Of a stretch of DNA of 32,357 nt, positions 679 to 31,258 are shown in pieces. Source of the stretch: Deltaproteobacteria bacterium (GTDB lineage: Bacteria; Myxococcota_A; Polyangia; Haliangiales; Haliangiaceae); assembly GCA_005887925.1 (NCBI GenBank), contig VBLP01000387.1, forward strand, positions 1 to 32,357, in the 5' to 3' direction. Positions within the stretch are counted from its first letter, which is position 1; every line of letters begins with the position of its first letter. Both the position numbers and the translations under genes were made by a program. A model generated the notes under the pieces. The model was not told the origin of the DNA. It was given only the letters and a program-made list of their open reading frames with translations, and ran no database searches.

Positions 679-775
679 CGGAAACGCAAGGGAATCGAAC
701 CCTCCGATCCGTCGCTCGCGCGAGGATCCATCGGTTTTGAAGACCGAGGTCGGCACCAGTCCGGCACGCGCTTCC
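679..775 (-). tRNA. selC: Selenocysteine tRNA (tRNA-Sec, anticodon TCA)
   Basis: Read on the minus strand from 775, the 5' end GGAAGCGC pairs with GCGTTTCC (687-680), giving an 8-bp acceptor stem with one G-T wobble, followed by discriminator G679. The anticodon arm is TCGGT-CTTCAAA-ACCGA, so the anticodon is TCA, which reads UGA. The T arm is GAGGG-TTCGATT-CCCTT. The variable arm is long: GATCC and TCGC pair with GCGA and GGATC around a GCGA loop with one bulged C. The 8+5 acceptor/T-arm geometry, long variable arm and UCA anticodon are diagnostic of bacterial tRNA-Sec. No CCA is encoded. The D arm pairs imperfectly (GCCGG with CCGAC, one C-A mismatch), so exact D-arm boundaries are uncertain. 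No selA, selB, selD or evident selenoprotein gene lies in the window. Confidence 0.9.
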
Positions 776-19387: not shown

Positions 19388-22460
<3,073 letters not shown>

Positions 22461-22466
22461 CACCCG

Positions 22467-22988
22467 CTAGAACGACCCGCTGATGCCCACGCCGACGACG
22501 GCGCTCGCGGTCGTCGGCGCAACGATCGGTGTCACCTGGAGGTGGTGCCGCTTGTTGTAGTTCTTCGCCGCCGTGCTGGCTGTGGCGACATCGTAGATGA
22601 TGCCGCCGGCGTAGCCGAGGGCACCGACGCCAACGAGAGCCAGGCCCGAGAGCGGGTTACTGTGGCAATGGTTCCCGCGGTCCGCGAGGCACTCGTCGAT
22701 CCCGCTGGTCCCGGCGAACACGAGGCCCGCAGAAACGAGGCGGATGCCCATGCCCCAGGTGAACGGTGTACCAGCATAGATCTGACCGGCGGACGGCGTG
22801 ACGAGCGAGCTCAGCAGGCCGGCGCCCGCGAGGGTGTTGTTATTGAAATGCAAGCCCGCAGCAAACAGGCCGGCCGAGAGCGCCGTGCCGCCCACTGAAA
22901 GCAAGCCCGCAACTTCAGGACTTCTAGGTGTCGTGTCGTCCGCCGACGCGAAGCGAGTCGTGAAGAGGAGAAAGCAAGAAACGCCCAC
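22467..22988 (-). CDS. Small exported or membrane protein of unknown function
   Basis: The 173-aa protein starts at GTG 22988, with AAGG nine bases upstream and an in-frame TAG eight codons before. It has a signal-peptide-like N-terminus ending FASA, then DDTTPRS. Alternating Gly/Ala-rich hydrophobic segments follow (about 25-48, 52-72, 77-93, 112-135), including SLVTPSAGQIYAG, and a final KNYNKRHHLQVTPIVAPTTA stretch. The last strand-like segment VVGVGISGSF ends in Phe, as in outer-membrane proteins. I do not recognise the family. Base composition is less GC-rich than its neighbours, which may hint at different ancestry. Confidence 0.65.
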   Translation of the reverse strand: MGVSCFLLFTTRFASADDTTPRSPEVAGLLSVGGTALSAGLFAAGLHFNNNTLAGAGLLSSLVTPSAGQIYAGTPFTWGMGIRLVSAGLVFAGTSGIDECLADRGNHCHSNPLSGLALVGVGALGYAGGIIYDVATASTAAKNYNKRHHLQVTPIVAPTTASAVVGVGISGSF

Positions 22989-23139
22989 CGTGGTGAACCT
23001 TATAACTGGCTAGAATCACGCGACGAGCTGTCGAAAGTTGGCCGAGATTCCACCGTCGCGTGACGGACTCTGGACGTTGCTCGACACCTGGCAGCCGTAG
23101 CTGGCAAACCGTGGAACGCGTCGTCGGACGCCGGGCGGA

Positions 23140-24516
23140 CTACCCGCCGAGCGCGAAGTAGATGAGGAAGGCGAGCGACGAGGCGAGCATGAGCGGATGG
23201 ACCTGGCGGGCGCGGCCGGTCAGGAGCTTGAGCACCACGTAGGTGAGGAAGCCGGCGCCGATGCCGTTGGTGATCGAGTAGGTGAACGGCATCACGGTGA
23301 CGGTGAGGAACGCGGGGATGGCCTCGGTGGGATCGTCCCAGCCGATCGCACCGACCTCGCGCATCATTAGGAAGCCGACCAGCACGAGGATCGCGCCGGT
23401 CGCCTGGGGAGGCACCACGCCGGCGAGCGGCGAGAGGAACAGGCACAGCGCGAACAAGAGGCCGGTGACGACCGAGGTGAGGCCGGTGCGGCCGCCGGCG
23501 GCTGCGCCCGAGGCGCTCTCGATGTACGTGGTCGCGGAGCTGGCTCCGACGGCGCCACCGGCGGCGGCCGCGAGCGAGTCGACCAGCAACACGGCGCCGG
23601 GGCGCGGGAAACCGCCCTGGTCGTCGAGGTAGTGCGCTTCCTGGCCGACGGCGACGACGGTGCCGACGGTGTCGAAGAAATCCGACAGCATGATGGAGAA
23701 CACGGTGAGCACGGCGGCGGCCGGTCCGAGGACGCGGGCGAAGCCGAAGCTGAATCCGCCGACCAGCGAGAAGTCCGGGGCCGCGACGACCGCGGCGGGG
23801 AGCTCGGCCACGTGGGACGCGAACCCGGCACCGCCGAAGCCGGCGCGGGCGACGAGCGCCACCGCGGTGCTCGCGGCCATGCCGATCAGCAGCGCACCTC
23901 GCACGCCGCGGGCCAGCAGCCAGCCCGTGAACAGCAGGGTGACCGCGAACAGCCCGACCGGGAAACCATGCAGCCGGCCGGCATCGCCCAGCGTGAGCAA
24001 CCCGCCCCCGGCCGAGACGAAGCCGGCGTTCTTGCAGCCGATCAGTGCGAGGAACAGGCCGATGCCGATCGCGATCGCGCGCTTGAGCGGCAGCGGCACC
24101 GATCGGACGACCACCTGGCGCAGCCCGGTCACGACGAGCAAGGTGACGACGAGCCCCTCGGCGACGATCACGCCCATCGCCTCGGCGAAGGACAGGTGGT
24201 CCGCGCCGACCAGCTGGAACGCGACGACGGCGTTGAGGCCCATCCCCGGGGCGAGCGCGAGCGGCAGGTTGGCCGCGAGCCCCATGATCACGGTCATCAC
24301 CGCCGCGACCAGCGCCGTCGAGGTGAGCAGCGCGCCCGCGCGCTCGGGCCCGGCCGCGGCCCCGAGGATCTGCGGGTTCACGAACAGGATGTAGGCCATG
24401 GTCACGAACGTGGTCGCGCCGGCGAGGATCTCGCGGCGCATTGTCGTGCCATGGCCGGTGAGATCGAACAGGCCGTCGAGCCAGGGTCCCTGCGAGCTGC
24501 CGGGGGGCGATGCCAT
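23140..24516 (-). CDS. NCS2-family nucleobase permease (AzgA-like, purine)
   Basis: The 458-aa protein starts at ATG 24516 (MASPPGSSQGPW), has about 12-14 transmembrane segments and follows the AzgA/PbuG subfamily pattern. This includes REILAGATTFVTMAYILFVN near the N-terminus, LALAPGMGLNAVVAF, IMLSDFFDTVGTVVAVG and TTYIESASGAAAGGRTGLTS. These proteins import adenine, guanine or hypoxanthine with protons across the inner membrane. It is divergent from miaA across 114 bases. No purine riboswitch was recognised upstream. Confidence 0.9.
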   Translation of the reverse strand: MASPPGSSQGPWLDGLFDLTGHGTTMRREILAGATTFVTMAYILFVNPQILGAAAGPERAGALLTSTALVAAVMTVIMGLAANLPLALAPGMGLNAVVAFQLVGADHLSFAEAMGVIVAEGLVVTLLVVTGLRQVVVRSVPLPLKRAIAIGIGLFLALIGCKNAGFVSAGGGLLTLGDAGRLHGFPVGLFAVTLLFTGWLLARGVRGALLIGMAASTAVALVARAGFGGAGFASHVAELPAAVVAAPDFSLVGGFSFGFARVLGPAAAVLTVFSIMLSDFFDTVGTVVAVGQEAHYLDDQGGFPRPGAVLLVDSLAAAAGGAVGASSATTYIESASGAAAGGRTGLTSVVTGLLFALCLFLSPLAGVVPPQATGAILVLVGFLMMREVGAIGWDDPTEAIPAFLTVTVMPFTYSITNGIGAGFLTYVVLKLLTGRARQVHPLMLASSLAFLIYFALGG

Positions 24517-24630
24517 GGCGCGCGGCATCATACACGGCGCGCAGCGAGCGTCGCGGCGTTCTCGCGCTGGCCGATCGCCTCGGTCCATGATCGCATGCGG
24601 CCGCCGCGCGGCGTACTACACTGCGAGATC

Positions 24631-25554
24631 GTGGTGCACCGCCTCGTCGTGATCGTCGGTCCGACCGGCGCGGGCAAGACGCGGCTGGCGCTGCAGCTGG
24701 CCGAGCATACCGGCGGCGAGGTGGTGTCGGCCGACTCGCAGCAGGTGTACGCGGGGATGGACATCGGCACGGGCAAGGTCACGGCCCAGGAGCGGGCGCG
24801 CGTGCCGCATCACGTGCTCGACGTGGTCCGTCCCGACGAGGACATGACGGCGCAGCGCTTCATCGACCTCGCCGACCGCGCGATCGCGGACGCGTGGGCG
24901 CGCGGCAAGCGCGTGATCGTGTGCGGCGGCACGGGGCTGTACGTGCGCGCGCTGCTGCTCGGGCTGTTCGCGGGCCCGCCGGCGTCGCGCGAGCTGCGCG
25001 ACGAGCTGGCCGAGCGGGCGCGGCGAGATGGCACCGCGGCGCTGCACGCCGAGCTCGCGCGCATCGACCCGGCCGCGGGGGCGAAGATCGATCGCAACGA
25101 CGCCAAGCGGATCATCCGCGCGCTCGAGGTGTTCCGGCTGACCGGCGAGCAGATGAGCGCGCACCAGGCCAAGCACGATCACCGCTCGACGCCGCCGCGC
25201 TACGAGGCGAACCTGATCGGCCTGGCGCCCGAGCGCGATGCGCTGTACCGCGCGATCGACGGGCGGGTCGACGCGATGATCGACGCGGGGCTCGAGCACG
25301 AGGTGGCGGGGCTGCGCACGCAGGGATACCGGCCGCCGCTGCGCTCGCAGCAGGCGATCGGCTATGCGGAGCTGCACGATGTGGCAGACGGCCGCGTCAC
25401 CCGCGCCCGGGCGATCGAGCTGATCAAAAGAAATTCGCGTCATTACGCACGGCGTCAGCTGTCGTGGTACCGCGGCGATGGCGCGATCCGCTGGCACCCC
25501 GACCCCGCCGCCGTTGACCTCGCCGACCTGGAGCGGTACCTAGCAGGGCTCTAG
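24631..25554 (+). CDS. miaA: tRNA dimethylallyltransferase
   Basis: The 307-aa protein adds a dimethylallyl group to A37 of tRNAs that read UNN codons. The motifs are all present: P-loop GPTGAGKT, SADSQQVYAGMDIGTGK, VCGGTGLYVRALLLG, RNDAKRIIRALEV, RSQQAIGYAEL and KRNSRHYARRQLSWYR. GTG 24631 is chosen because the conserved LVVIVGPTGAGKT begins a few residues later (GTG 24634 is equally possible). Nine bases separate its stop from accA, so the two are probably co-transcribed. Confidence 0.95.
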   Translation: MVHRLVVIVGPTGAGKTRLALQLAEHTGGEVVSADSQQVYAGMDIGTGKVTAQERARVPHHVLDVVRPDEDMTAQRFIDLADRAIADAWARGKRVIVCGGTGLYVRALLLGLFAGPPASRELRDELAERARRDGTAALHAELARIDPAAGAKIDRNDAKRIIRALEVFRLTGEQMSAHQAKHDHRSTPPRYEANLIGLAPERDALYRAIDGRVDAMIDAGLEHEVAGLRTQGYRPPLRSQQAIGYAELHDVADGRVTRARAIELIKRNSRHYARRQLSWYRGDGAIRWHPDPAAVDLADLERYLAGL

Positions 25555-25563
25555 TCCTCCGTC

Positions 25564-26555
<992 letters not shown>

Positions 26556-26559
<4 letters not shown>

Positions 26560-30349: not shown

Positions 30350-31258
30350 ATGGCTAACGAAACTCGCGCCTATGCCGCTGCTCACTTCGCGCTGGAGCTC
30401 AGCGGCATCGAAAAGCTGGGCGTGCTGCGCTCGATCGAAGGTGGGGGGCTCAAGGCCGAGGTGATGACCTACCAGAACGGCGGCACCTACGACCGCTGGC
30501 GCCAGCTCGGCAAGCCCAGCTTCGAGGACATCAAGCTGCAGGTCGGCATGGCGATGTCCGAGCCGTTCTACAAGTGGATCGAGCTGTTCTTCGCCGGCAA
30601 GGCCGACCGCAAGGACGGCGCGATCGTCGCCGGCGACTTCTATTACAAGGAGCGCGCGCGTCGGGAATTCACCGATGCGATGATCAAGGAGCTCACGTTC
30701 CCCAAGTTCGACGCGACGGACAAGAACACCGCGTACATGGGCGTGACGTTCAGTGTCGAGAACATCCTGTTCAAGAAGGGCGAAGAGGGCAAGACGCTCG
30801 ATCAGAACGCCGGGACCGAGACCCAGAAGTCGTGGAAGGCCTGCAACTTCACGTTCAGCATCGACGGCTTCGACTGCTGCAAGCGCGCCACGAAGATCGA
30901 CTCGTTCACGATCAAGCAGAACGTGCTCGACTACCACGCCGGCGGCCGCCGCGCGCCGTCCAAGACGCCGAGCGCGATCGACTTCCCGCAGATCTCGTTC
31001 TACCTCCCCGAGGTCGACGCCCAGCCGCTGGCCGATCACTTCAAGAAGCGCGGCGTCGACGGCGAGGTCCCGGGCCGGCTGCACGGCCAGATCACGACGT
31101 TCGACAACGCGCAGTCCACCAAGTTCACGCTCGAGTTCTTCAACGCCGACATCCTCAACATGGCGCCCGACAAGGCCGACTCCTCGACCGAGGAGATCAA
31201 GCAGGTCAAGGTCGACCTGTACGTCGAGAAGATGTCGTTCAAGTACACGCAGGGCTAG
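30350..31258 (+). CDS. Phage tail-tube / contractile-injection tube-like protein with duplicated domain
   Basis: The 302-aa protein resembles T4 gp19-type tube proteins. The N-terminal half shows HFALELSGIEKLGVLRSIEG, a GGTYDRWRQLGKPSFEDIKL stretch, FYKWIELFFAG, and the late FPKFDATDKNTAYMGVTFSVENI strand pair. The C-terminal half (about 155-302) repeats the plan: NFTFSIDGFDCCKRATKIDS, then PQISFYLPEV, HGQITTFDNA, FTLEFFNADILNMAPDKADS and a final VDLYVEKMSFKY strand. Tube proteins form hexameric rings in phage tails, type VI secretion and extracellular contractile injection systems; a double-domain subunit would give a trimeric, pseudo-sixfold ring. No sheath, baseplate or ATPase genes are nearby. 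It ends 7 bases from the facing small gene. Confidence 0.72.
   Translation: MANETRAYAAAHFALELSGIEKLGVLRSIEGGGLKAEVMTYQNGGTYDRWRQLGKPSFEDIKLQVGMAMSEPFYKWIELFFAGKADRKDGAIVAGDFYYKERARREFTDAMIKELTFPKFDATDKNTAYMGVTFSVENILFKKGEEGKTLDQNAGTETQKSWKACNFTFSIDGFDCCKRATKIDSFTIKQNVLDYHAGGRRAPSKTPSAIDFPQISFYLPEVDAQPLADHFKKRGVDGEVPGRLHGQITTFDNAQSTKFTLEFFNADILNMAPDKADSSTEEIKQVKVDLYVEKMSFKYTQG

Follow-up and report, generated by a model that had tools for sequence, protein, structure and literature searches.

The locus raises the question of whether a selenocysteine tRNA (tRNA-Sec, selC) gene that ends without an encoded CCA and carries a C-A mismatch in its D arm still serves a working selenocysteine (Sec) pathway. 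The window, that is, the whole stretch of 32,357 nt that was analysed, harbors the gene on its minus strand at 679–775, with 97 nt from the acceptor stem through the discriminator G (window position = 776 minus tRNA position). ARAGORN reported tRNA-SeC (tca) at 678–775 of the minus strand, and the Rfam family RF01852 was matched at 680–775 of the same strand over the entire model, with 67.9 bits (E 5e-12) against a gathering cut-off of 47 bits; it was the sole RNA family above threshold within the window. The acceptor stem of 8 bp (GGAAGCGC/GCGUUUCC) is followed by a 2-nt linker, and the anticodon loop is CUUCAAA (Table 1). The first-pass annotation had named the gene selC from its 8-bp acceptor, 5-bp T stem, UCA anticodon and long variable arm; the two stems are fully paired (8/8 and 5/5), the variable arm measures 24 nt, and both the anticodon call of ARAGORN and the covariance-model search that the annotation had proposed uphold the name. 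The covariance score, the UCA anticodon, the 8 + 5 bp acceptor-T helix and G73 are all those of bacterial tRNA-Sec, and the gene is a genuine selC and an ordinary member of that group. With the bacterial 8/5 type (RF01852) it shares UCA, the 8-bp acceptor, the 5-bp T stem, the long variable arm, G73 and the GG in the D loop, whereas it departs from this type by lacking CCA, by a D arm that is one base longer and by the C-A in its D stem.

Table 1. Features of the selC gene in the window
Feature	Position	Strand	Basis
selC, tRNA-Sec, anticodon UCA, no encoded CCA	679–775	-	Rfam RF01852, ARAGORN, parsed stems
Acceptor stem, 5′ strand (partner 680–687)	768–775	-	8/8 pairs, one G-U
D arm, 17 nt, GCCGGACUGGUGCCGAC; 5/6 D-stem pairs, bulged A at 760, loop UGGU	749–765	-	Parsed arm
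C of the C-A mismatch, tRNA position 12	764	-	Parsed arm
A of the C-A mismatch, tRNA position 26	750	-	Parsed arm
Anticodon UCA, complementary to UGA	738–740	-	Sequence, ARAGORN
Long variable arm, 24 nt	706–729	-	Sequence; paired in computed fold
T arm, 5-bp stem GAGGG/CCCUU (5/5 pairs), loop UUCGAUU	688–704	-	Parsed stems
Discriminator G (G73), then CGT instead of CCA	679	-	Parsed sequence

The genome is a draft of 12.2 Mb in 778 contigs and is 81% complete. Profile searches returned one selA (556 bits) and, above the cut-offs, one selB (296 bits) and one selD (319 bits), all complete in the matched frames and located on contigs other than that of selC. The profile alignment of selB was limited to model positions 1–356 of 581; Pfam assigned the two winged-helix domains of SelB to the same product of 633 residues and found the SelA domain in the product of selA. 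SerRS domains share the contig of selB. Across the genus, tRNA-Sec was found in 15 out of 16 genomes and selA in exactly those 15, the remaining genome (G042) being 73% complete. In three genes, an in-frame TGA with conserved flanks occupies the position expected for the redox residue: selD (ARGGGUAAK), a formate dehydrogenase gene (TQARVUHGPTV, which we take to be the motif of the Sec form of this enzyme; 1 out of 15 formate dehydrogenase model matches with TGA) and a thioredoxin/AhpC-like (AhpC/TSA-like) gene (CWSSWUGCR; 1 out of 15 AhpC-TSA matches with TGA). The sequence 3′ of each of the three TGAs is foldable as a hairpin, in a folding run without a control. Such genes had been predicted in the first pass, with the caution that selC would be a relic in a genome devoid of selA, selB and selD; because all three are present together with the three in-frame-TGA genes, selC cannot be called a relic. 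Some UGA codons are very probably read as selenocysteine in this genome, and ordinary gene calls would therefore truncate SelD, the formate dehydrogenase and the thioredoxin/AhpC-like protein. A composition scan of the window for TGA codons with coding-like flanks gave one candidate, at 2700, which was rejected as a selenoprotein site, being the ordinary stop of a metallo-hydrolase ORF.

The 3′ end of selC reads CGT after the discriminator. Fifteen other tRNA genes of the genome were read for this feature, one of which was set aside for its poor stems, and CCA is encoded in 1 of the 14 credible genes. The missing CCA of selC is therefore ordinary here; it is a habit of the host genome and was rejected as a sign of decay. 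The first pass was right that the CCA end is absent from the sequence, but the absence carries less weight than the D-arm mismatch. Within the class, CCA is encoded in 47 out of 137 tRNA-Sec genes (one of the 47 cut short there) and within the genus in 8 out of 16, G055 among them; outside the class, it is encoded in 68 of the 83 genes read. Survey figures for bacterial tRNA-Sec genes with an encoded CCA are 89.2% in one account (PMC5143459) and 93% in another (PMC5330540), and the former mentions certain Myxococcales in which CCA is encoded in no tRNA genes or in initiator genes only (PMC5143459). The PolyA_pol family, which includes CCA-adding enzymes, has three matches in the genome.

The consensus D arm of the family consists of a six-pair stem and a four-base loop. 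The arm of the window is longer by one base (17 nt versus 16), with one inserted base likewise marked in the Rfam alignment, and in place of an unbroken stem it has 5/6 pairs and one bulge, with the loop UGGU. The extra base, which is absent from the first-pass annotation, was rejected as specific to the window: arms of 17 nt are present in 125 out of 137 tRNA-Sec genes parsed within the class and in 49 out of 83 read elsewhere in the phylum (the latter from 82 of the 162 matched genomes, mainly top-scoring and not a random sample), and D-arm length is mostly uniform inside a family. When the extra base was allowed anywhere on the 5′ side, 93 of the 99 distinct 17-nt arms could be read as six pairs and one bulge, with the best-fitting bulge site at tRNA position 14, 15 or 16, and the other 6, the window's included, reached five pairs only. 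Since the trait varies in this way among accepted members, the broken D stem does not exclude membership in tRNA-Sec. All other tRNA-Sec genes of the genus (15 out of 15) have six D-stem pairs and one bulge. The three outer pairs covary, with pair 11-27 standard in 99 of the 99 distinct arms (shuffled mean 53.8), pair 12-26 in 98, the window being the exception (49.0), and pair 13-25 in 97 (56.9), an excess that does not amount to a probability because the shuffles do not keep relatedness. Two class matches above the RF01852 cut-off (L161 in G280 and L162 in G279) have the anticodon UGA and are thus serine tRNAs; they were excluded from D-arm parsing, and they imply that the threshold admits false positives in the class.

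Bacterial tRNA-Sec genes are described in published surveys (PMC5330540 and PMC5143459) as having a 6-bp D stem and a 4-base loop, and Clostridiales tRNA-Sec with a 7-bp acceptor as having a D-stem bulge at position 13a (PMC5330540). The likeness to these bulged Clostridiales molecules lies in a single base left unpaired on the 5′ side of a D stem of six pairs, at position 14, 15 or 16 in the present lineage. However, the Clostridiales cases combine a 7-bp acceptor with a 12-bp acceptor-T helix, whereas the window has an acceptor of eight pairs and so falls outside the Clostridiales type.

At the second D-stem pair of the window, C12 (764) stands opposite A26 (750). The C-A mismatch claimed in the first pass is present in the sequence, and of the irregular D arm described there it is the part peculiar to this gene, whereas the stem is otherwise the usual extended one of the relatives, with a bulge. 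Pair 12-26 is C-G, G-C, U-G, A-U, G-U or U-A elsewhere; in the other members of the genus it is C-G, U-G or U-A. Because G055, of the same genus, has an A in this column that is paired with U, the C-A looks like a C-G to U-A exchange of which one half has taken place. It is most simply one tolerated G-to-A change, or an error of the draft assembly; such a change is not neutral across the lineage, as the near-universal standard pairing at 12-26 attests. One odd 86-nt match (L241, G538:C121; 70.2 bits, anticodon UCA, stems poor under 8/5 parsing) was also scored as C-A at this pair. It is counted in the class/outside tally and excluded from the 99-arm and genus counts, and if it were a true, correctly parsed tRNA-Sec, the C-A of the window would not be unique.

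On the strength of these comparisons, the gene is most probably (roughly 0.9) a functional bacterial selC with the bulged six-pair D arm of its lineage, the second pair of which would have become C-A by one G-to-A change. According to the account in one review, recognition of the D arm by SelA is structural, and activity is increased by the fifth and sixth pairs (PMC7609411). Both pairs are intact in the window's tRNA, which is expected to work because they are present; the G-to-A change in the second pair would spare these two distal pairs, and the mismatch is presumably tolerated.

A single miscalled base would look identical to a substitution, and the C-A may accordingly be a base error in a fragmented draft whose true pair is C-G, the gene being otherwise as described. 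We consider this a possibility of some weight, although short of even odds: the assembly is an incomplete draft in many contigs and, with C-G, U-G or U-A as the genus pair, a single substitution yields C-A, but the U-paired A of G055 shows that the column drifts to A in nature, and the five-pair arms, 6 out of 99 with the window's included, show that a lost pair occurs. That selC is decaying, with the mismatch as the first mark of relaxed selection after a partial loss of Sec use, is very unlikely. A pair that is standard in every other distinct arm is indeed broken, and the lowest-energy unconstrained fold of the tRNA is without the native D stem, whose pairs have a mean probability of 0.037 (the 8th lowest of 103 distinct tRNAs, with some intact-stem relatives lower still, so that the measure does not separate broken stems from intact ones). 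Nevertheless, the three machinery genes are complete in their frames, the three TGA-containing genes retain their conserved flanks, the remaining stems are all paired or have lineage-typical exceptions, and only 1 out of 97 positions differs from every genus relative, this position being in the variable arm.

A26 presumably corresponds to position 24 in the numbering of the Hirsh mutation G24A. The Hirsh UGA suppressor is described as tRNA-Trp with G24A (PMC11805395), likewise a G-to-A change in the 3′ strand of the D stem, and by analogy A26 might be an adaptive hinge change that would make the tRNA easier to bend and UGA decoding faster. We regard this as highly improbable, and any Hirsh-like effect of A26 is speculation: Hirsh tRNA-Trp reads UGA as a near-cognate, whereas UGA is cognate for the window's tRNA, with delivery by SelB. 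Were it true, Sec would be helped against termination in a lineage whose tRNA-Sec D stem is already bulged and flexible. Least credible of all is that the gene encodes a serine or leucine tRNA with a long arm, or is a pseudogene, for although RF01852 also matches other tRNAs of the genome weakly (the next one has 47 bits and is named tRNA-Leu by ARAGORN), and the matches in G279 and G280 bear the anticodon UGA, this is refuted by the UCA anticodon and the acceptor length, with the 67.9-bit score, the complete Sec machinery and separate tRNA-Ser genes for GGA, CGA, GCT and TGA also against it.

For the functional selC that we prefer, the transcript would be trimmed and supplied with CCA by tRNA nucleotidyltransferase, and the tRNA would be charged with serine by SerRS. 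SelA would then convert the charged tRNA to selenocysteyl-tRNA with selenophosphate made by SelD, itself a predicted selenoprotein in this genome, and SelB would deliver it to UGA codons with a hairpin after them.

The gene is adjoined by a small minus-strand ORF (58–471) and by a divergent glutathione S-transferase-like (GST) gene (869–1687), a search with which returned two loci, one at 59% in a MAG of an alphaproteobacterium and one at 34% (partial) in a MAG of Myxococcota. A tblastn comparison with the 138 other class loci found no match beside selC for the GST, metallo-hydrolase and TauD genes; among the neighbors in the window, only ORF 58–471 had a homologue close to another selC, namely that of G062, a member of the same family. 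No sigma-70 promoter-like site was found next to selC, and no U-tailed terminator either, the single terminator-like match falling inside the tRNA. A strong hairpin downstream of selC (610–644) has 14 pairs and a 7-base loop, with no T run. Further along the window, 19797–26559 contains mutL (MutL_C domain), a miaA-like tRNA isopentenyltransferase domain and accA; MiaA modifies A37 in tRNAs for codons whose first base is U. At 30350–31258, a T4 gp19-like tail-tube domain occurs in a protein that may belong to a contractile injection system or to a prophage.

Other tRNA-Sec loci were also noticed. A different type, best read as a 7-bp acceptor in a 12-bp acceptor-T helix, is present in five genomes of the class, each from a different family (L074:1559-1655, L075, L114, L140 and L155, in G005, G015, G190, G085 and G214). 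Directly downstream on the same strand, these loci have a protein that is 44–66% identical among them and was identified as SelA in the three cases tested by Pfam (3 out of 3); the scattered selC-selA pair has possibly moved horizontally. Two genomes, G083 (L046, L139 and L267) and G085 (L040, L140 and L266), each contain two selA genes and two tRNA-Sec genes that differ from each other, which reflects either two parallel Sec systems in a single cell or a mixing of bins (contamination 4 and 6%). On contig G049:C163, the tRNA-Sec genes L034 and L072 are identical in sequence and separated by 7 kb. Eight genes, all of family f17 (L081, L093, L100, L104, L105, L106, L108 and L151), have the anticodon loop CUUCAAC in place of CUUCAAA.

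A literature search on tRNA-Sec D-arm variants and myxobacterial selenoproteins, in a collection with few subscription journals, turned up no recognisable study of this arm in the tRNA-Sec of myxobacteria. The single C-A pair is of little importance by itself. The selC finding matters for annotation, with three genes of the genome prone to truncated calls. Most of the tRNA-Sec genes read in the class, and many of those in the phylum, have an extra base in the arm that SelA recognises, and the tolerance of SelA for a bulge thereby becomes testable.
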